64,000 nucleotides of DNA. It comes from an uncultured Granulosicoccaceae bacterium (GTDB taxonomy: Bacteria; Pseudomonadota; Gammaproteobacteria; Granulosicoccales; Granulosicoccaceae). Where the stretch lies: contig CALIHW010000080.1 of assembly GCA_938020525.1 (NCBI GenBank), positions 1-64,000 of the forward strand, in the 5' to 3' direction. Below the pieces are notes generated by a model. It had not been told where the DNA came from. It did not search any database and saw nothing but the letters and a program-made list of their open reading frames with translations. Below are positions 12,342-27,578 of the stretch, piece after piece; positions within the stretch are counted from its first letter, which is position 1; every line of letters starts with the position of its first letter. Position numbers and translations under genes: made by a program.

Positions 12342-12483
12342 CGTAGGGGGATAAGCCAGCGCATCCACCAATGTGCGGCACGTCAGATACATTATTACCA
12401 AATCAATCTGGATTTAATGCACTGCTAATTCTGTAGCGGTCGTTGTGGTAGTTTGGTGGATGCGCAAGCTTATCCCCCCTACG
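12342..12483. repeat. MITE-like element with 30-bp imperfect terminal inverted repeats
   Basis: cgtagggggataagccagcgcatccaccaa (12342-12371) versus ttggtggatgcgcaagcttatcccccctacg (12453-12483), inverted. Confidence 0.7.
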
Positions 12484-12524: not shown

Positions 12525-13004
12525 TCAATTAGCTGGAATGCGTTTTCCACTTACCAAATGCTCAATTGATGTTTGTATAGTGTCTGCGTCCTGCAAACCC
12601 CGTTGCGTGTGTACGTGCCTACCTCTGGCGTCGAAATACAGTAGCGTTGTTTTGCTTACATTGTATTGCTGCTGAAAAGATCTTCCCTTTTCAGTAGCGA
12701 TGTCTGCGATTCGGTATTGAATGTTCTCAATATTTTCAGTGCTGTTTTTGGTTAATTTCTTTAAGCGCATGCAGACCTGGCAGGACTGGTCGTGAACCTG
12801 CACAATTGTTGGTGTACCGTTGCCGATGACTGCCAGGTCGTGTAACTCGCGCTTATTTTGCTCGTAGGCATTGATTCCAAATGCGGATACTCCAATAACA
12901 GCTGCGGCGATTGGAATGATAATCAATTTTCGCCGCGATAGAGTTGACTGTCTGTCTTCTGACGCTTTCTTGGCTTTTTGGGCTTTTGAGAGTTTTTTAC
13001 TCAC
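12525..13004 (-). CDS. Membrane-anchored thioredoxin-fold protein
   Basis: N-terminal TM (KLIIIPIAAAVIGVSAFGINAY) and CxxC in HDQSCQVCMRLKKL; Trx-like length. Confidence 0.75.
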   Translation of the reverse strand: MSKKLSKAQKAKKASEDRQSTLSRRKLIIIPIAAAVIGVSAFGINAYEQNKRELHDLAVIGNGTPTIVQVHDQSCQVCMRLKKLTKNSTENIENIQYRIADIATEKGRSFQQQYNVSKTTLLYFDARGRHVHTQRGLQDADTIQTSIEHLVSGKRIPAN

Positions 13005-13452: not shown

Positions 13453-15039
13453 ATGAGAGAACTATTTAACGCTGGTAAAGGACATGGAGCCAGTCAATCG
13501 TTGGAAGACGTTTCAAAGCTTATAGATAAGCTTAAAGCAGATAGTCCAGCCGGAACTGGTAGTAAAGTTGGTTTGCACAACTTTGGTTACTTGTTTAGAG
13601 ACCTTGCTTCCAGTTCTGATGCGCGTCTGCCGGAAGGTCCACAGACGATTTCGGCATTGCGTAAGCTTGGTACCGCAATGGCCGATCCGCAGCCACAACT
13701 TGGCCCTGATTCTGGAATCCCTGCGGGTTATACGTACCTTGGTCAGTTCATTGATCACGACATAACTCGCGATGCCAAGGCAGGTGGACTCAATGATCAG
13801 ATAGCTCTGCCTGCTTTTGATCCGGTGCTGACTGATGAAGCCACGGCCATGATGAAAAATGTAAGAACGGCAACGCTTGAGCTGGATAGTCTTTATGGGG
13901 CAGGCCCGGAGGGAGATGCGGACTTATACGAATCAGATCAGGTGCATTTAAAGCTCGGCAGTAATCGCAATGATGGGTTTGGCAGCCCTGATCACATCTC
14001 TGCGAGTACCCGAAACAGAGATTTGCATCGTGCAGCTGATGGAACACCAATTATTGGTGATGATCGAAACGATGAAAACCTGCTTGTTGCACAAACTCAT
14101 CATGCGTTTAAGGTTTTTCATAACAAAGTTGTTGATTCTCTGGCGGGTAGTCATCGCACGGCAGCTACTCTCTTCGCTGCCGCCAGGAAAAAAACCATAC
14201 AACACTATCAATGGATAGTACTTAATGATTTTCTGCCGCGTATAGTGAGTCGAAGTGCGCACGACAGTGCTTTATCTAATCCAAAATTTTATAAGGATGA
14301 ACTGGCTACCTTTATGCCATTTGAATTTAGTGTAGCCGCCTATCGTTTTGGCCATTCTATGATCAGACAGCGTTACGATCACAATAGTATATTCGGGTCG
14401 GAGATTACCAGTTTTGAACTGCTGTTTGCTTTCACTCATGCGGGTCGCGAAACTATGCCTGTGCCACAGAGCTGGATTATCAACTGGCGTAACTTTTACG
14501 ACACCGACGCTAACAAAGCAGTGAATATCGCACGGCCGATTGATACCCGATTATCTGGCGAACTGGAGAGGCTGCCAAACGAACGGGGCTTAATGGCCAT
14601 GCTTGCCATTAGAAACCTGTTGCGTGGATACCTAATGAGTTTGCCCAGTGGCCAGGCAGTTGCTGAGGCGATGGGTTTCGCAGCGCTGACAAATTCAGAG
14701 CTGCAACAAAACACAAACGTTGTAGAAAGAGAAGCGCTTGCTGATTTGAAAAATACCACGCCGCTTTGGTACTACATTTTGAAAGAGTCATCGGTTCGCG
14801 AGAATGGAAAAAGGCTTGGCGAGGTTGGTGGTTCAATCGTGGCTGAAACGTTGATGGCACTGGTTCGAAGGTCAGAGCATTCCATTTTGACTGACAGCAC
14901 CTGGCGGCCAGATCTGGGTGCAGTAAATGGTCGCTTCACTATGGCAGATTTGCTGCGCTTTTGTGGTTTCGAGGAGATGCAGGGTCAGTTTGCCAGATCA
15001 TCTCAAAGGTCCGCCAGCCGGGTAACAGAAACAATATAA
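13453..15039 (+). CDS. Animal-type (peroxidase-cyclooxygenase superfamily) heme peroxidase
   Basis: YTYLGQFIDHDITRD distal His motif, NDENLLVAQTHHAFKVFHN, HYQWIVLNDFLPRIV, FSVAAYRFGHSMIRQ proximal His, TPLWYYILKES, GGSIVAETLM. Confidence 0.92.
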   Translation: MRELFNAGKGHGASQSLEDVSKLIDKLKADSPAGTGSKVGLHNFGYLFRDLASSSDARLPEGPQTISALRKLGTAMADPQPQLGPDSGIPAGYTYLGQFIDHDITRDAKAGGLNDQIALPAFDPVLTDEATAMMKNVRTATLELDSLYGAGPEGDADLYESDQVHLKLGSNRNDGFGSPDHISASTRNRDLHRAADGTPIIGDDRNDENLLVAQTHHAFKVFHNKVVDSLAGSHRTAATLFAAARKKTIQHYQWIVLNDFLPRIVSRSAHDSALSNPKFYKDELATFMPFEFSVAAYRFGHSMIRQRYDHNSIFGSEITSFELLFAFTHAGRETMPVPQSWIINWRNFYDTDANKAVNIARPIDTRLSGELERLPNERGLMAMLAIRNLLRGYLMSLPSGQAVAEAMGFAALTNSELQQNTNVVEREALADLKNTTPLWYYILKESSVRENGKRLGEVGGSIVAETLMALVRRSEHSILTDSTWRPDLGAVNGRFTMADLLRFCGFEEMQGQFARSSQRSASRVTETI

Positions 15040-15064
15040 AAATTTAAAGACAACGGAGAACACC

Positions 15065-16609
15065 ATGAAGTACAACGTAGACACGGATAAGCTACGTGCA
15101 ACGTGGCAGGGATTGCCATTAATTAAAACTGCGGAAGATCTTTTCCGCGTTTCACTTGATTTTGGTCAGCAAGGTCAAGTGGTCGCAGACACGCATCTCT
15201 TTCCAACCAAGCCGGTTCGGCTGTTGCCATACAGTGATTTTGACAGTCAAAGGCGTGATGCATCAGGGCGGCAGTACGCCAGCGGTGACGCAGCGCTGGT
15301 GGCTGATATACCCGAAGGAGATGTGTTGTTTGCGATCAAGCATCATCGATGTAACAACCGCTATTTGTCGAAGCAGACACCTGGTGATGAACTGAAGGAA
15401 CATTTAAAGCTGCAGGATACCCATATTCAAGTGGTGATAGGTGTCGCTGACAGATCGCGTGGTCTTCCGGGTGTAGTGACTCTGAACAGTCCGCAGTCTT
15501 ATGGTGCAGAAACCGGTGCAGCGGGACGCTTTGGCGAAGTGGGTTATCCAATGATCTTTGTAAGGCCTGCGTACCCGTCTTACTTGCCAGCACGGCTGCA
15601 CCGTTCTTTTACTGACAATATTCGAACTATGGCTCTGGCTTTTAACGCGGTTGTCAGATTTCCAGGTAATGGCAGATATAACGGCGGTGACCCGTTAGCC
15701 TGTTGTTCTGTAAAAGCGCTAAAAGAACATGTTACGCAAATGTTGTTCGCACTTGCTGGTAATAAAAGCCAACGCAAAGCTGCCCGTGACTGGTTCGCAC
15801 AAGCTGACAATCTGATCTATTGTGCGGAATACGCCTTTGTGGCGGCATCGGCTGGATGTCACTGGCCACTAAACGCACAGACGGTTGCATCACTGACTAA
15901 CTCAAGGTTGAGCCATCGCTTTATAACCATGTTAGAGCGTCACAATTTGGGGCAAAGCACCCGTCTCACTGCAGATAACCCCAATACGCTTAGTCGTTTT
16001 GTCTCGGCAAGTGTTGCACCGGATGACTTGTTGCCTATGCCTGCCTATGCATCCGAGAATCAAAAAATGGTGGAGCAGAAGAAGCTCGCTTTCAAACCTT
16101 TTACTGCTGCTGATATTGTCGATCACGCATTGCGACTGCACTTTGAACGGGAAAAAAGTGGTGAATCTATTGCCCCGGTGCAAGCGGCCGTATTGAACAA
16201 AATGATGCCGGGTTTTCTCGAAATATTAGGTCTTGATAGTGAAGATGCGAATCTGAATCACAAGGAAGCGGCGACTATTGTATTCACTGAAATTGTCCGC
16301 ACCGTTGGCACGCAATATCCTTCTTATGCGGAATTTAGAGCAGCGTTAAAACCCTCTCTTAAGGCTGCATCAATGTTAGTTGGCGGTAGAAGCGGTGCTG
16401 AAAACCCGGGAAATCTGTTTGTACCTCCGTGCCTTTTTCATATTGTCGCGCGCGAGGAGCATAGTGGTGGTTTATTGGGACTGTCTTATGTAGCACATGG
16501 TTTACATTTGTCGCTATTGCACGGCGAAGATGCGCCAGTTGCTTTAACACAGCAATCGATAAACGCTGTAGCATCTGACAGGGAGATAAGCCATGCCGCA
16601 GCCGTCTAA
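15065..16609 (+). CDS. Conserved-looking hypothetical protein, 514 aa, function unknown
   Basis: Long ORF 25 bp downstream of the peroxidase, overlapping the lipase gene; no family recognised. Confidence 0.75.
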   Translation: MKYNVDTDKLRATWQGLPLIKTAEDLFRVSLDFGQQGQVVADTHLFPTKPVRLLPYSDFDSQRRDASGRQYASGDAALVADIPEGDVLFAIKHHRCNNRYLSKQTPGDELKEHLKLQDTHIQVVIGVADRSRGLPGVVTLNSPQSYGAETGAAGRFGEVGYPMIFVRPAYPSYLPARLHRSFTDNIRTMALAFNAVVRFPGNGRYNGGDPLACCSVKALKEHVTQMLFALAGNKSQRKAARDWFAQADNLIYCAEYAFVAASAGCHWPLNAQTVASLTNSRLSHRFITMLERHNLGQSTRLTADNPNTLSRFVSASVAPDDLLPMPAYASENQKMVEQKKLAFKPFTAADIVDHALRLHFEREKSGESIAPVQAAVLNKMMPGFLEILGLDSEDANLNHKEAATIVFTEIVRTVGTQYPSYAEFRAALKPSLKAASMLVGGRSGAENPGNLFVPPCLFHIVAREEHSGGLLGLSYVAHGLHLSLLHGEDAPVALTQQSINAVASDREISHAAAV

Positions 16610-17468
16610 AGCCAACTTATGGCAGAGAACAAAGCTTTCTCTGAATCAACCAAAGGATTCTGTGGTGTATAGAACCTCTGAAGGTGTTTGGTTTAGTACT
16701 CTGGACTCGGAGGTAATGCATCGCCCGGAGTATCGAAACTTCAGACATATTGAGCACTACGCGATGCTGTCTGCTGTCGCCTACATTGACGATAGTAGTT
16801 TGCGGCAGGCAAAAGGGATAAAGGTGCCCGAAGGCTGCAAACTTATATTGGATTCCACCGATTCTGTAGAAGTGGATAGCAAGGGCGTGACGGTAAAAGG
16901 GTTGCGCTACCTGGTCTGGCACTGGCCCGAAGAAAAGCAGCTTATTATTGCGTTTCGCGGCAGCGGCAAACGATTGGGAGACTGGTTCTCAAACTTTCGA
17001 TGGCTGACCAGATATATCCCTGGTGTTCACGATCACTACGATCTAGTGCGTGAAAACATCAGCCAGATCGTAACCGATGCGCGGTTAATTGCCGGATCGA
17101 CAGATCAGATTATTACTACTGGTCATTCCCTTGGTGGTGGCCTTGCTCAGCAAGCAGCCTACGGATGTGATGCGATCAAAACGGTTTATGCATTTAATCC
17201 AACCCCGGTTACAGGTTTTCGAAATGTGGATTCACAGGCACTTGAGAAAAACCGACAAGGTATATTCATAGCCCGTGTGTTTGAGCATGGTGAAATACTA
17301 GCCTACATGCGTTTTGGACTGCGTCAGTTCTACAAAATATCCGCGCGTGATCCTCAGATAATTGAGTTGAGATTTAATTTCTCGAAAGCAATAGGTGGTG
17401 TGCGTGAACACGGCATGGAGAATTTTGCAAAGCGGGTTTGGAAAGCTGCACGAGGTGTAGAGGCTTAG
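16593..17468 (+). CDS. Class 3 lipase (alpha/beta hydrolase)
   Basis: IIAFRGSGKRLGDWFSNFRW; nucleophile elbow TTGHSLGGGLAQQAAY; overlaps the upstream ORF by 17 bp. Confidence 0.88.
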   Translation: MPQPSKANLWQRTKLSLNQPKDSVVYRTSEGVWFSTLDSEVMHRPEYRNFRHIEHYAMLSAVAYIDDSSLRQAKGIKVPEGCKLILDSTDSVEVDSKGVTVKGLRYLVWHWPEEKQLIIAFRGSGKRLGDWFSNFRWLTRYIPGVHDHYDLVRENISQIVTDARLIAGSTDQIITTGHSLGGGLAQQAAYGCDAIKTVYAFNPTPVTGFRNVDSQALEKNRQGIFIARVFEHGEILAYMRFGLRQFYKISARDPQIIELRFNFSKAIGGVREHGMENFAKRVWKAARGVEA

Positions 17469-17548
17469 TCAGATAAGAATTAGACAACGGAACAGTCTGC
17501 ATTCTATCCGAAGAATTTACCGAAAAAGTATCTTAATCAAGGAAGGAA

Positions 17549-18217
17549 ATGAATACACATCATGTAAAGCTCGCCAGCATTGGAGTTAGTGGTATCACCG
17601 CTTTGGTGATGTTGATGATTGTCAGTCAGTTCGAAAGAACAAGGAATGGTGGAGTTATCATCTTTAAAATTCCCGGGCTGGAAATTCATCGTGAAGCAGC
17701 AGAGATTGATATTGAAAAACTGTTATCAGCTCCTGAAACAAAGGATGCCAATAAAGAAATTGCAAAGCGAGTGTTAACACTCTATGAGCTTGATTCGAAA
17801 TTGTTGTCGGCTATAGAAGGACTCGGCTACTCTGATAATTTTTCGATCGGTTTGCGCGATATGCAGGAACGTATGCGCGGACCATTTTTCGCACCAGATG
17901 TAAAAGTAGAGCTTGCCTTCAGTGATGAGGTTGGATTCAGTCGCGCCAGGGTATGTGCGGATAGCATATTCCGCAATCAGAGCATGACAATAGCAACAGA
18001 AGACGGCGGTAATATGGATATGATCGAAAGCGCTAATGAACTGCTGCTGCATGAGTGCCCGGCGCATCAGCGAGATGTTGAAAAAATCATTGTGGCTGAA
18101 AAATTTGGTATCCGCTTACTCGGTACTGAAAATCCTCCGTCGTCTGTTCAGGCTATTGCCAAGGCAATACCTACCATACGTTTTATTCATCCGCCACAAA
18201 AGGAGTTCATGGAATGA
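17549..18217 (+). CDS. Hypothetical protein with N-terminal TM anchor
   Basis: 222-aa ORF; hydrophobic segment LASIGVSGITALVMLMIVSQF. Confidence 0.65.
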   Translation: MNTHHVKLASIGVSGITALVMLMIVSQFERTRNGGVIIFKIPGLEIHREAAEIDIEKLLSAPETKDANKEIAKRVLTLYELDSKLLSAIEGLGYSDNFSIGLRDMQERMRGPFFAPDVKVELAFSDEVGFSRARVCADSIFRNQSMTIATEDGGNMDMIESANELLLHECPAHQRDVEKIIVAEKFGIRLLGTENPPSSVQAIAKAIPTIRFIHPPQKEFME

Positions 18218-18360
18218 AGAAGCTGATTGTGTTTGTACTAGTAATTGTTTCTCAAAGCGCGTATGCCGACTGCACCTTCTCAGGTGAAGAATATCCGGAA
18301 GGTACTGTCATTAACGGTTATGTTTGTGGCGCTGACGGTAAGTGGCACAGTGAAAGCTGA
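18214..18360 (+). CDS. 48-aa putative secreted two-cysteine peptide
   Basis: Not in ORF track. MKKLIVFVLVIVSQSAYADCTFSGEEYPEGTVINGYVCGADGKWHSES; ATGA overlap with upstream stop; signal peptide with AYA-D cleavage-like site; AGGAG just upstream. Confidence 0.7.
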   Translation: MKKLIVFVLVIVSQSAYADCTFSGEEYPEGTVINGYVCGADGKWHSES

Positions 18361-18435
18361 CATGAGTCAGGTTGAGATAGTTTTAATGTGACAACCGAAC
18401 ATTAATTAAATATATTTATTTAGGTAGATGTTGCT

Positions 18436-20784
18436 ATGGATAGTGTCATCATTGATGCGCCTGCGAGTCGAGCCAAGCAAATAGAAGCCAGGCAGCCAGA
18501 AAGCAGGCAGCCAGAAAGCAGGCAGGCAAAAGTAAGGTTGAAAAGAAAATCTGAAGGTAGCCCTCCGTCGGATGAGCCAGAACCGGGGATCTTAAGTGTT
18601 GACCCGGACAATGTACATGCAGACCCTGGTGAGGAGACCGAAAATCTTATTGATCAGGGTCCACCTGCAGATGAAAACACAAAGAAACATGCTTTTGTCA
18701 TCATGCCGTATGGCGTAAAAGCAAGGCCCGATGGCAAAACGATAGATTTCGACAAGATATATGATGATCTAATCAAGCCGGTTTTGGAGAATCAGGGGTT
18801 TGAGCCGTTTCGAGCTGATGAAGAGACCGTGAGTGGCGATATTCATACGGATATGTTTCAAGAGCTACTGCTGGCCGATGTGGTGATCGCAGATCTCAGT
18901 ATTCACAATGCTAATGTCTTCTATGAACTGGGCGTGCGGCATGCATTCAGACGTCGCGGAGTGATACATATCAAGGCTCGGCTTGAAGGAAATTCTGTGC
19001 GCTTGCCGTTTGATGTGTTTAATGTCAGAACTATCAGCTATAACATCAACGAAGATGGAAAGCCTGATCAGGCGTTATTGACGCGTAATAAATCGAACTT
19101 TACCCAGGTGCTGCAAAGCACATGGAACTCCAATATAGACGCTATTCATAGTCCGATTTATAACTTGTTGTCCGGTCTTTCCGAGCCAGATCGTTCTACT
19201 CTTACGACACCTCTTGCAACCGGCTTTTGGAGAAACTATACCGACTGGCAGGAACGAATTGCCATTGCCCAGAGACGTAAGTACATCGGTGACATACTGT
19301 TGTTAACTGATGAAATCAGTAATCCTTTCATAAAAGAGGAAGCAGTCGGTGAGGTCGGTAGTGCACTGCGCGAGCTTGGCAGGCATGAGTTGGCGCTCAA
19401 TGAGTATCGAAAAGGGTTGGCGCTGAATCCTAAAAATCGAAAATTCAGACGGGAGGAGGCACGACTTCTAAACGCGTTGGGGCGGGTCGAAGCTGCCATT
19501 GTTAAGTTGGAACGACTGGTTGATGAGGAGCCGGATGACACCAAGGCCACCCGCTTTTTAGGAACCATCTATACACGCTTATGGGAAGACTGTTGGCTTG
19601 GTATGCATAAGGATCGGGATGATCGTCGTAAGGCAGCATTCAGTACATACCCGTGGCTGGTTAAAGCTATTGATACGTACTTAAATTGTTTTCATTCCAA
19701 TCTCAATAGCCATGAGCCTGGTATAAAAGCATATAGCCTCGGCAGTGTGCTCGTAAATCTGGCAGAGGAGTTTGATGATGAGCAGAACCCAAGTGCGGAT
19801 ATCGAGAGAATCCGTGCGTTATTACCTAATTTGGGTGCGACGCTGAGGTTTTCTCTGCAATCTAAAGGTGTTCACGCCAGTAACAGTTACTGGACGCTGG
19901 CGTCGTTGGCAGAGCTATTGTTGATCGATGGTGAAACAGAGTTAGCCATTACACGTGCCTATCAAAAAGCCATGTCCTACTCACGGCGCAAGATTAATTT
20001 CTTAAATGAGTCTCGGCAACGTCTTGAGTTCTATCGTGTGCTGGGTTTCAGACCCTCTAGAGCCACTGCGGCACTGCAGGTGCTAAATGCAGAGATTGCG
20101 CGGGTCGAAGCGGGTGGAATTGGAAAGCTACCGGTTGACTATCCGGAGCCAGCATCGGATGTTCAGGCATTTTTGTTTACCGGTCATATGCTGGATAAGC
20201 CGGATATGAAAACCGCCCGTTTTCCTGTAGAGGCAGAAGCATCCATGCAACTTGAAATTTCAAATAAGCTTGATGAGCTGAATGCGGATGATAACGACCA
20301 TGCCTTTTTAAGTGGCGCTGCCAATGGTGGAGATATCTTATTCATTGAAGAATGCATTAAGCGCAATATGGCGATACATATTCAGATGCCGTGTGATGAA
20401 GCGCGATATATAAACGAATGTATCGAACATGATGATTGGGTTGAAAGATACTACAAGATTCGCATTAACAATCGCGTTAATTTTCATTTTCAGGCAGATA
20501 GAGTTGGACGTCCTCGTATCGGGGTAGATCCCTACTATAGAAACCTGCGCTGGACTCTGTATTGTTCTCTGCAATTGGGTATTGATCGTCTTAGACTGAT
20601 AGCACTCTGGGATGGAAAATCAGATGCGGCCTGTGATGAAGATGGTAAACGCGTTAGTGAAATGATTCGCCAGATGAGAGATATTGGCGGCAGAGTAGTT
20701 CACCTCAATACCACAAAGCTGCTTAGTAACACCGCGCATGCTGCCCGTGCTGATGTATCAGCACCCACCATGGCAGCACCATGA
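18436..20784 (+). CDS. Multidomain signalling protein: nucleoside 2-deoxyribosyltransferase/TIR-like domain + TPR/TRAFs-binding (DUF4071)-like region + C-terminal SLOG-like Rossmann domain
   Basis: KKHAFVIMPYG...FDKIYDDLIKPVLENQGFEPFRADEE...ADVVIADLSIHNANVFYELGVRHAFR; TPR-like helices; C-term FLFTGHMLD...FLSGAANGGDILFIEECIKRNMAIHIQMPCD. Confidence 0.75.
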   Translation: MDSVIIDAPASRAKQIEARQPESRQPESRQAKVRLKRKSEGSPPSDEPEPGILSVDPDNVHADPGEETENLIDQGPPADENTKKHAFVIMPYGVKARPDGKTIDFDKIYDDLIKPVLENQGFEPFRADEETVSGDIHTDMFQELLLADVVIADLSIHNANVFYELGVRHAFRRRGVIHIKARLEGNSVRLPFDVFNVRTISYNINEDGKPDQALLTRNKSNFTQVLQSTWNSNIDAIHSPIYNLLSGLSEPDRSTLTTPLATGFWRNYTDWQERIAIAQRRKYIGDILLLTDEISNPFIKEEAVGEVGSALRELGRHELALNEYRKGLALNPKNRKFRREEARLLNALGRVEAAIVKLERLVDEEPDDTKATRFLGTIYTRLWEDCWLGMHKDRDDRRKAAFSTYPWLVKAIDTYLNCFHSNLNSHEPGIKAYSLGSVLVNLAEEFDDEQNPSADIERIRALLPNLGATLRFSLQSKGVHASNSYWTLASLAELLLIDGETELAITRAYQKAMSYSRRKINFLNESRQRLEFYRVLGFRPSRATAALQVLNAEIARVEAGGIGKLPVDYPEPASDVQAFLFTGHMLDKPDMKTARFPVEAEASMQLEISNKLDELNADDNDHAFLSGAANGGDILFIEECIKRNMAIHIQMPCDEARYINECIEHDDWVERYYKIRINNRVNFHFQADRVGRPRIGVDPYYRNLRWTLYCSLQLGIDRLRLIALWDGKSDAACDEDGKRVSEMIRQMRDIGGRVVHLNTTKLLSNTAHAARADVSAPTMAAP
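18475..18534 (+). repeat. In-frame 15-bp repeats encoding [KR]Qxxx x4
   Basis: AAGCAAATAGAAGCC / AGGCAGCCAGAAAGC / AGGCAGCCAGAAAGC / AGGCAGGCAAAAGTA (KQIEA RQPES RQPES RQAKV). Confidence 0.9.
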
Positions 20785-21962
20785 GACCGTTGCAAGCGGA
20801 TGTACATCAGCATCTCTATACACCGGGGCCAAAACGAATACTTACACTGGACGGTGGTGGGATACGCGGTGTCATAAGTCTGCAGATTTTAAAAAAAGTA
20901 GAGTCTTTGTTGCAGCAACGCCACGGAGCGCAAATGCGTCTGTGTGATTACTTTGACCTGATAGCCGGCACTTCCACTGGTGCGATAATAGCTGCCGGTC
21001 TTGCAATAGGTATGCGCGTCGATGAGATTGACTCACTTTACCGCAAGCTTGGTGCACAGGTATTTAAGCAGCAGTTTTTCAGGCGTGGTCTTTTGCGTGC
21101 GAAGTTCAGCTCCGCTGCACTCGAGGCGGAGCTTGAAAGACAATTCTCAGATATATCACTGGGCAGCAAGCAAGTTAAAACGGGTCTTGCAATTGTGCTA
21201 AAACGACTTGATACAGGTAGTCCCTGGGTGGTGTACAACGCTCCGACTGGTAAATATTTTAGTAAGCGGCCCGGGAAGAAAGGTGTTGCCAACAAAGATT
21301 TTTTATTACGAGACTTAATCCGTGCCAGTGCAGCAGCACCTACCTATTTTGAGCCGGAAGCGCTTGCCATTGCCGAGAGTGTTAGTGGTGCTTTTGTCGA
21401 CGGTGGGGTCAGTCCGCATAATAATCCTGCGCTACAGACTTTTTTACTGGCAACGCTTAGTGGCTATGGGCTGCAGTGGTCAAGCGGTGCAGATCAATTG
21501 TTCCTGGTGTCGGTTGGAACCGGTACGTCTGAGGTTGAGCTCAACACGCAGGAAGTAATGAACCAGAGTGCAGCGACTCTGGGTGTCAGGTCACTGGTAA
21601 CTTTGATGAACGATACATCAAGCTTGAATGAAATGATTCTACAATCGATTTCAGACAGCCCGACTGCAAGGCAAATAGATCGGGTAGTTGGTGAAATGCG
21701 CAGTGATCAACTGGCGGGTAAGCCTTTGTTGTCCTATCTGCGCTACGATGCGAGGCTTGATTGCAAATGGCTGAGAGAGCATCTTGCAATGCAATACAAT
21801 CAGAATCAAATAGATGCACTTGAAAGTTTATCGAACGCAAACAACATTCAGGAACTAGCCGAAATTGGGCGTAGCTGTGGCGACAATCTGGTAAAAGCGA
21901 GTCACTTTTCCAGGTCTTTTGATGTCAGCAGCTCACGCCTAACCGAAACAGTGGCTGTTTGA
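20781..21962 (+). CDS. Patatin-like phospholipase (CapV-like)
   Basis: RILTLDGGGIRGVISLQIL oxyanion motif, IAGTSTGAIIAAGLA Ser motif, GAFVDGGVSPHNNPA Asp motif; ATGA overlap with upstream gene. Confidence 0.93.
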   Translation: MRPLQADVHQHLYTPGPKRILTLDGGGIRGVISLQILKKVESLLQQRHGAQMRLCDYFDLIAGTSTGAIIAAGLAIGMRVDEIDSLYRKLGAQVFKQQFFRRGLLRAKFSSAALEAELERQFSDISLGSKQVKTGLAIVLKRLDTGSPWVVYNAPTGKYFSKRPGKKGVANKDFLLRDLIRASAAAPTYFEPEALAIAESVSGAFVDGGVSPHNNPALQTFLLATLSGYGLQWSSGADQLFLVSVGTGTSEVELNTQEVMNQSAATLGVRSLVTLMNDTSSLNEMILQSISDSPTARQIDRVVGEMRSDQLAGKPLLSYLRYDARLDCKWLREHLAMQYNQNQIDALESLSNANNIQELAEIGRSCGDNLVKASHFSRSFDVSSSRLTETVAV

Positions 21963-26101: not shown

Positions 26102-27460
26102 TTATAAATGTTCGAGCGCATCAGTGAGTCTTTTAACTGCAATCACTTCAAGGCCTTTGATAGTTGATCGAGGTTTGTTGGCGAATGGAACTATTGCTCT
26201 TGTGATGCCGTGCTTTTGCGCCTCTGTCAGACGCTCCTGTCCGTTAGTAACGGGACGCACCTCACCGGATAAACCAATTTCACCGAATACCGCAAGCTTG
26301 TTATCGAGTGTGATATCTCTGAATGAAGACACTGCAGCCAGCAGCACCGGCAGATCTGCTGCAGTTTCAGAAATGCGCACCCCACCGACGATATTAATAA
26401 AGACATCCTGATCGTGCATGGTAACACCCGCGTGGCGTTGCAACACTGCGAGCAACATATTGAGTCGGTTTTGTTCTAGCCCGAGTGTGACTCGCCGCGG
26501 GTAGCTGCCATGGCTACCGGTTACCAGTGCCTGAGCTTCTACCAGTAGTGGCCTTGAGCCTTCACGGGTAACCATGATGACGGAGCCTGCGACTGGTTCA
26601 TCGTGGCGGGATAAAAACAGCGCCGATGGATTTTTAACACCTTTGAGTCCAGTCTCTTCCATGACGAACACACCGAGCTCATTAACTGCACCAAATCGAT
26701 TTTTGATAGCACGAATCACCCGGTAACGGCTGTTGGTATCGCCTTCAAAATAGAGCACGGTATCAACCATGTGCTCTAGTACACGCGGACCTGCCAGTGC
26801 CCCTTCCTTTGTTACATGACCAACGACAAACATGGCGATGTTAGTTTGCTTGGCAAAACGAACCAGGTGTGCGGCGGACTCGCGAACCTGTGCCACAGAG
26901 CCGGGTGCAGATTGAAGCTGATCGGTGTAGACCGTTTGAATAGAGTCGACCACCATGATTTGCGGCTGATCTTTTTGCGCGTGGGCTGTGATTGCCTCGA
27001 CACTTGTCTCGGTTAGCAGGCGGAGGTTTTTTGCCGGTAAGCCAAGCCGGCGTGCACGCAGTGTCACCTGCTGCAGTGATTCCTCACCTGTGACATACAG
27101 AGTCGGGTAGTCATTTGAAATGGCAGCGAGGCATTGAAGTAATAGAGTTGACTTACCTATGCCCGGGTCACCACCAATCAATGTGACTGAGCCCGGTACC
27201 AGGCCGCCGCCCAGTGCCCGGTCCAGTTCACCGAGGCCGCTGCTTACCCGCGGCTCTTCCTCGAGACTGACGTTCTCAATTGACGTTATCACTGACTTGC
27301 CAGCGTAGCCGTCAAATCGTGGTGCTTTTTTATTGGCGGTTGGCGCCGCTAGTGATTCTTCGAGCGTATTCCACTCGCCGCAGTCTGCACATTGGCCGCT
27401 CCATTTGGGCGACAAAGCGCCACAGGCCCGGCAACTGTAGCTGAGTTTTGATTTGGCCAT
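26102..27460 (-). CDS. radA: DNA repair protein RadA
   Basis: Zn finger CRACGALSPKWSGQCADCGEWNTL; LIGGDPGIGKSTLLLQ; KNRFGAVNELGVF; start trimmed to MAKSKLSYSC. Confidence 0.96.
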   Translation of the reverse strand: MAKSKLSYSCRACGALSPKWSGQCADCGEWNTLEESLAAPTANKKAPRFDGYAGKSVITSIENVSLEEEPRVSSGLGELDRALGGGLVPGSVTLIGGDPGIGKSTLLLQCLAAISNDYPTLYVTGEESLQQVTLRARRLGLPAKNLRLLTETSVEAITAHAQKDQPQIMVVDSIQTVYTDQLQSAPGSVAQVRESAAHLVRFAKQTNIAMFVVGHVTKEGALAGPRVLEHMVDTVLYFEGDTNSRYRVIRAIKNRFGAVNELGVFVMEETGLKGVKNPSALFLSRHDEPVAGSVIMVTREGSRPLLVEAQALVTGSHGSYPRRVTLGLEQNRLNMLLAVLQRHAGVTMHDQDVFINIVGGVRISETAADLPVLLAAVSSFRDITLDNKLAVFGEIGLSGEVRPVTNGQERLTEAQKHGITRAIVPFANKPRSTIKGLEVIAVKRLTDALEHL

Positions 27461-27578
27461 GACAACAACGGTAAGAATGAATTCGGGTATTGTATCCCGA
27501 CGAGGTGTAGATCGGGCGATTTTGCGCCAGTACACTGTAAATAATAATGCGGCTGAAAGATTGCTAGAGAATGGTTAA

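Follow-up and report, generated by a model that had tools for sequence, protein, structure and literature searches.

The closest described relatives of the locus analysed here are the TPR-S conflict systems, reportedly set out by Burroughs and Aravind in J Bacteriol in 2020 and said to contain predicted sensors of NAD+-derived signals. The name TPR-S (Pfam PF20308), which we use for the sensor-patatin module below, follows that work. The known systems and our locus share a DrHyd/TIR-like N-domain followed by TPR-S, and homologous loci stand beside TIR genes and patatin, SLATT or CHAT effectors. However, the present locus differs in the fused C-terminal GGD domain of its sensor, in lacking a TIR gene within the block, and in a five-gene peroxidase module. 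The same logic of a TIR-class enzyme, an NAD-derived signal and a nucleotide-sensing domain is found in Thoeris (ThsB-ThsA) (PMC9503650) and is predicted here from the genes; the block, in contrast, has neither a sirtuin effector nor a separate TIR gene, and its effector is a phospholipase. TIR, DrHyd and SLOG domains are grouped as a single class of nucleotide-processing domains that serves prokaryotic immunity (PMC9503650).

The CBASS effector CapV and the patatin of our locus have the effector family and the catalytic motifs in common, and CapV is the best PDB match, but CBASS differs in that there is no CD-NTase here, the partner of the patatin is a DrHyd/TPR-S protein, and the score falls below the CBASS equivalog cut-off. 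Human ASK1 is an oxidative-stress death kinase. The N-terminal region of ASK1 (MAP3K5) and the sensor share a TPR scaffold homologous over ~250 residues, whereas the sensor is without kinase, PH and SAM domains, the patatin is encoded separately, and the sensor N-domain keeps a predicted catalytic Glu. The short bacterial peroxicins (Family 5), whose role is given as unknown, have the same length, -GQxxDHD-, -RxxE- and proximal His as our peroxidase (PMC4420034), a placement made by motifs and not by a tree; the peroxidase in the window differs in being embedded in a conserved conflict-type cassette.

We read the locus as a horizontally moving chromosomal conflict cassette of two modules, with abortive infection as its probable function, and give this reading a probability of about 0.6.

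Layout, conservation and mobility of the block

The window, by which we mean the whole 64,000-nucleotide stretch of DNA analysed, comes from an uncultured Granulosicoccaceae bacterium and contains seven co-directional, tightly packed ORFs at 13453-21962 of the + strand (Table 1). The close packing and the overlaps described in an earlier note were all recovered, each at its coordinates: the lipase ATG (16593) is inside the orphan gene, which ends at 16609, and ATGA overlaps join the genes for the TM protein and the peptide (18214) and those for the sensor and the patatin (20781, 4 nt). The block consists of two modules, five genes led by the peroxidase and then the sensor and the patatin, with a gap of 56-88 bp between them among the copies. 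The flanks named in the note, a hydroxyacid dehydrogenase on one side and folE2-dxs-ispA on the other, were also borne out, with one gene to add, the thioredoxin-like gene between the dehydrogenase and the block. All the flanking genes (pirin, hydroxyacid dehydrogenase, thioredoxin-like, folE2, dxs and ispA) are ordinary. The thioredoxin-like gene was considered as an ASK-style partner and rejected as a member of the block; it adjoins folE2 where the block is elsewhere. A 26-nt inverted repeat (window 12346-12478), with arms 92% complementary and 81 nt apart, lies close to the block on its left side, between the genes for the dehydrogenase and the thioredoxin-like protein.

Table 1. Block genes, sensor domains and adjoining elements in the window.
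Feature	Coordinates	Strand	Remarks
Thioredoxin-like neighbour	12525..13004	-	Outside the block; next to folE2 in relatives that lack the block at this site
Heme peroxidase, peroxidase-cyclooxygenase superfamily, 528 aa, lacking a signal peptide	13453..15039	+	An_peroxidase PF03098, E=2e-21
Orphan protein, 514 aa	15065..16609	+	No family match
Lipase_3-like alpha/beta hydrolase	16593..17468	+	GHSLGGG nucleophile elbow, Ser179
Single-TM protein, C-terminal domain predicted extracytoplasmic	17549..18217	+	Two invariant Cys (136, 170)
Secreted peptide, 48 aa	18214..18360	+	Signal peptide and C20/C38 pair
Promoter-like site ahead of sensor gene	18388..18416	+	Weak; scan total equals chance
Three-domain sensor, 782 aa	18436..20784	+	TPR-S PF20308 and conserved motifs
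Sensor N-domain, DrHyd/NDT type	18685..19047	+	NxNxxYELGxRH, Glu164; DNPH1 match
Sensor TPR-S scaffold	19153..20130	+	PF20308; ASK1 match
Sensor C-domain (GGD)	20155..20721	+	GxGGDILFxE...LWxG; standalone and patatin-fused homologs
CapV-like patatin phospholipase	20781..21962	+	PF01734, E=8e-28; DGGGIRG, GTSTG (Ser65), DGG (Asp207)

When 48 genomes of the order were searched, the orphan gene was found in 4 of the 14 genus members and in 0 of the 34 other family genomes. One relative (G011:C302, L008) has the same seven genes complete and in the same order. The gene order is also the same in a second relative (G010:C77, L009), with the patatin cut by the contig end. The third (G014:C4, L007) carries peroxidase, orphan, lipase, TM protein and peptide; of its sensor only a frameshifted stump remains (aa 96-157), and its patatin has been lost. 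Protein identity between these three other Granulosicoccaceae genomes and the window copy was 50-73% for most genes; the top values were those of the G014 orphan and peroxidase (71-73%), and the lowest those of the TM protein of G011 and G010 (31-36%). Furthermore, every block gene had a pN much lower than its pS, which was saturated; this includes the 48-aa peptide, which is kept in four genomes (pN 0.175 vs pS 0.96). Since dS was saturated for most pairs, the comparison is confined to pN << pS and no dN/dS ratios are given; read in this way, it indicates that every block gene is under purifying selection. The outcome of the neighbourhood check proposed in the earlier note was divided: the block travels as a unit inside the genus, but the seven-gene set was not found outside it. 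Likewise, the five-gene module was found together, and joined to the sensor-patatin pair, in this one genus only.

In the window the block sits between folE2 and the thioredoxin-like gene. On a G010 contig of 224 kb, the same two genes are separated by 98 bp with no block, and they are also neighbours in G011; in both genomes the block is on another contig. Since both closest relatives have an empty folE2-side site and carry the block at another place, it behaves as a transferable unit. Moreover, the core genes of the window were closest to those of G011 and G010 (dxs, 86/84%; gene 26102-27535, 90/90%), and G014 gave no match for these two core genes at the thresholds used, whereas the block was closest to that of G014 (orphan, 71% vs 54/52% for G011/G010). 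Because core genes and block thus point to different nearest relatives, the pattern is best explained by movement of the block as a whole between members of the genus, a comparison in which the distance of G014 rests on missing matches, not on a tree. The Granulosicoccaceae genomes are all MAGs and two of the block copies are on short contigs (8.3 and 11 kb), so that mis-binning could mimic relocation. The GC content showed no shift as a sign of transfer (47.0% vs 48.0%), and neither a tRNA nor a recombinase was found that would mark an insertion. In the plasmids, phages and IMG/VR patterns searched, the orphan was absent; the one part found in phages is the sensor N-domain.

The main competitor of the conflict-cassette reading is that the two modules are independent neighbours, that is, a TPR-S/patatin defence pair hitch-hiking beside an unrelated peroxidase-lipase operon (e.g., for envelope or oxidant stress), the two having once been linked in a mobile block. 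The sensor-patatin pair stands alone in many genomes, G014 retains the five-gene part without sensor and patatin, and the modules are set apart by the gap described above and the weak promoter-like site. However, order and linkage are kept in three diverged copies (~50-60% protein identity) at different chromosomal places. Moreover, an orphan homolog in G350 lies beside an abhydrolase-CHAT-TPR protein, an architecture also present in the island of a full-length sensor homolog, a hint that orphan and sensor homologs are part of one conflict network. We consider independent neighbours a doubtful account, and it is reasonably likely that the seven genes form one functional unit. This single-system claim is nevertheless the weaker one, because G014 keeps the five genes intact in the absence of the pair and the parts are thus separable.

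The peroxidase-led module

The orphan protein had no match in Pfam, PDB, PADLOC, NCBIfam or PHROG. Its AF2 model (pLDDT 77, pTM 0.81) gave no Foldseek fold match in PDB or BFVD. In an hhalign comparison with Peptidase_C92, the GDV and TH motifs aligned at a non-significant E=0.1. The motifs follow in the order GDV strand, T-H strand and Y-C-[AS]-E helix, with H120 before a strand and C253 at a helix start, and our guess is that the orphan may be a permuted papain/NlpC-P60-like enzyme (Peptidase_C92/YiiX-like). Homologs are rare (L027-L030, L033); two of them, with lipoprotein-type N-termini, are in one deltaproteobacterial MAG, and a partial one is in another. An Omnitrophota contig (L027, JAFGHF010000038, 2-11425) holds an ORF longer than 3,800 aa, in which glycosyl hydrolase 94 and response-regulator regions are joined to an orphan-family region at the C terminus; this may be a giant polyprotein or a fused ORF. 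The G350 homolog (L033, G350:C17, 5904-15538) is a 22% relative without the conserved Cys, next to a kinase-like protein as well as the abhydrolase-CHAT-TPR protein, in what looks like another conflict cluster.

For the lipase, Lipase_3 was sub-threshold in the window copy and above the cut-off in two orthologs. The TM protein had no family match and no plasmid homolog; this protein and the peptide are probably extracytoplasmic. A secreted peptide and a membrane protein within the cassette, together with deltaproteobacterial orphan homologs that are predicted exported lipoproteins, would suit an inter-bacterial toxin cluster, in which rival cells would receive the peroxidase, orphan, lipase and patatin as effectors. 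However, the block has no secretion or adaptor domains and no immunity-like gene, and the enzymes are without signal peptides; we regard such a cluster as very unlikely.

The heme peroxidase also matched the lactoperoxidase-like structure 8s6c (E=6.6e-7). Q98, D101, H102, D103, R205, E208 and H301 were present in all four orthologs, each of which has -GQxxDHD-, -RxxE- and the proximal His of the peroxidase branch; the heme enzyme also has a YRFGHS motif. The motifs -GQxxDHD- and -RxxE- are peroxidase-branch signatures, the former being typical outside cyclooxygenase/dioxygenase Family 4 (and 7), and halide oxidation is dominant in most members studied (PMC4420034). A Family 4-type departure from -GQxxDHD-, as in fatty-acid dioxygenases and cyclooxygenases, was not seen, the motif being intact. 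These motifs bear on an alternative raised in the earlier note, oxylipin-type lipid peroxidation metabolism, in which the lipase and the patatin free fatty acids and the heme enzyme dioxygenates them. Two lipolytic enzymes and an An_peroxidase do occur in one block. Nevertheless, because the motifs are of the halide-type peroxidase and not of the cyclooxygenase/dioxygenase kind (PMC4420034), the oxylipin reading is disfavoured; it also leaves the DrHyd/TPR-S sensor unexplained, and we hold it to be scarcely probable.

Elsewhere, peroxidase homologs were solitary genes with unrelated neighbours and no recurring partner, with one exception in G015. There (L082, G015:C133, 1114-6074), a decayed peroxidase of the same family is beside a GDSL-like hydrolase and a protein combining papain-like motifs with an alpha/beta hydrolase, a second assembly of peroxidase, cysteine hydrolase and lipase in the same genus. 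On a plasmid of Rhizobium sp. CB3171 (L095, 3646-9542), a close relative of the heme peroxidase lies directly downstream of a gene for a cyclase-ATPase-TPR regulator.

The sensor-patatin pair

The sensor matched TPR-S at E=1.4e-6 (29.3 bits vs a cut-off of 27.6), and its homologs did so at up to 1e-16. In the N-domain the motif NxNxxYELGxRH is invariant and Glu164 is present in 15 of 15 homologs. The best PDB match of this domain is DNPH1, a 2'-deoxynucleoside 5'-phosphate N-hydrolase and thus an N-glycosidase of the NDT/DrHyd class (E=0.0024), and the PADLOC TIR-effector model was matched at E=2e-7 and by 14 of the 15 homologs. By motif and profile, the N-domain is a DrHyd/NDT-type nucleotide domain with putative catalysis. 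When the TPR scaffold was searched as a 15-sequence profile, it matched the ASK1 structures 8qgy (E=8.1e-9) and 5ulm (E=3.6e-8) over ~250-265 residues, whereas most other high-ranking TPR matches covered ~80 residues; the profile evidence thus identifies the scaffold as homologous to the ASK1 central regulatory region. The C-domain gave no Pfam match in 11 members and only an irrelevant best PDB match (E=0.55), and by eye it appears Rossmann/SLOG-like. The AF2 model of the sensor (pLDDT 53), unreliable in its C-domain part, was left out of the fold calls. Of the NDT/TPR/SLOG-like composition proposed in the earlier note, the NDT (DrHyd) and TPR parts therefore stand by the DNPH1 and PF20308 matches, but the SLOG part is a resemblance without profile support.

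The patatin matched the PADLOC phospholipase effector model (1.5e-49), and its best PDB match is the CapV structure 8zr9 (E=1.4e-21). The oxyanion motif, the GxSxG Ser and the DGG Asp are all present, so that the Ser-Asp dyad is intact. Sensor parts were found adjacent or fused to patatins in at least seven unrelated loci, often beside TIR genes. G293 (L142) has a full-length sensor and then a patatin; G113 (L145), a C-domain gene, a patatin and a TIR gene; and G295 (L144), a C-domain gene, a TPR-S gene and then a TPR-S-patatin fusion. A TPR-S gene followed by a C-domain-patatin fusion occurs in Rhodococcus (L100), and an R. leguminosarum plasmid (L093) carries a C-domain gene, an N-domain gene, DUF4231, a patatin and a DUF4071 gene. 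Moreover, a 54%-identical patatin precedes an N-domain/TPR-S gene in G260 (L161), and in G209 (L162), beside TIR, the order is patatin, a short 2TM-like gene and an N-domain/TPR-S gene. Because the same parts split and fuse in different combinations, there is strong evidence that sensor and patatin share a pathway.

The link between patatins and nucleotide sensors of conflict systems suggested in the earlier note is therefore upheld, since the sensor is consistently found together with CapV-like patatins where the neighbourhood is of a conflict type, and we consider it highly probable that the two are a conflict pair. The scaffold, a predicted signal-generating DrHyd domain and a linked patatin effector were all found, and as judged from the genes the pair is a TPR-S conflict module, already known in kind. 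The idea of an undescribed system thus survives in part: the sensor-patatin half is known in kind, but its combination with the five-gene module was not found described, and our literature searches returned no description of this seven-gene set. A CBASS-like system, with the patatin switched on by a cyclic nucleotide, is the least probable reading, since CapV is indeed the closest patatin in PDB and PADLOC but the seven genes include no CD-NTase, Cap2 or Cap3 and the NF041079 score is 129 vs a cut-off of 200; CBASS identity was rejected for want of a CD-NTase among the seven genes.

Proposed mechanism

In the conflict cassette, infection or stress would lead the DrHyd/NDT domain, predicted to cleave or cyclise a nucleotide (probably NAD+), to make or read an NAD-derived nucleotide. 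The ASK1-homologous TPR-S scaffold would read the nucleotide product, and the C-terminal GGD domain may then dock on the CapV-like patatin and release it. The released patatin would deacylate membrane phospholipids, with the result that the cell stops or dies, a putative anti-phage role. The five-gene module may serve as a second weapon, oxidative and lipolytic, or as the part that triggers this system. A more specific version is redox-gated death, in which the lactoperoxidase-type enzyme would use H2O2 and a halide (or thiocyanate) to make an oxidant that acts as signal or weapon, the ASK1-homologous sensor would answer an oxidative or nucleotide signal and unleash the patatin, and the orphan would be a new papain-like lipid or protein hydrolase; we think this version unlikely. 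If it were true, it would represent a prokaryotic forerunner of oxidant-triggered ASK signalling.

If the cassette is real, TPR-S/patatin systems gain a defined minimal operon suited to reconstitution, in which the sensor has all three domains and the effector gene overlaps that of the sensor; the cassette would also add lactoperoxidase-type chemistry to bacterial conflict systems. The link of an ASK1-type scaffold with a peroxidase also raises a testable question, namely whether ASK signalling was already coupled to oxidants in its bacterial ancestor. Clear targets for structural biology are the orphan family and the C-domain, which Pfam does not include.

Two further loci with sensor homologs were observed. 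In G322:C7 (L141), a full-length sensor homolog is surrounded by a dense island of TIR, DUF4062-like, TPR and LCAT-CHAT-TPR-S genes, where the abhydrolase-CHAT architecture of the G350 orphan neighbour recurs with TPR-S. In another genus of the family (L020, G020:C250, 5157-7915), a frameshifted sensor gene stands solitary, without a patatin or other block genes.
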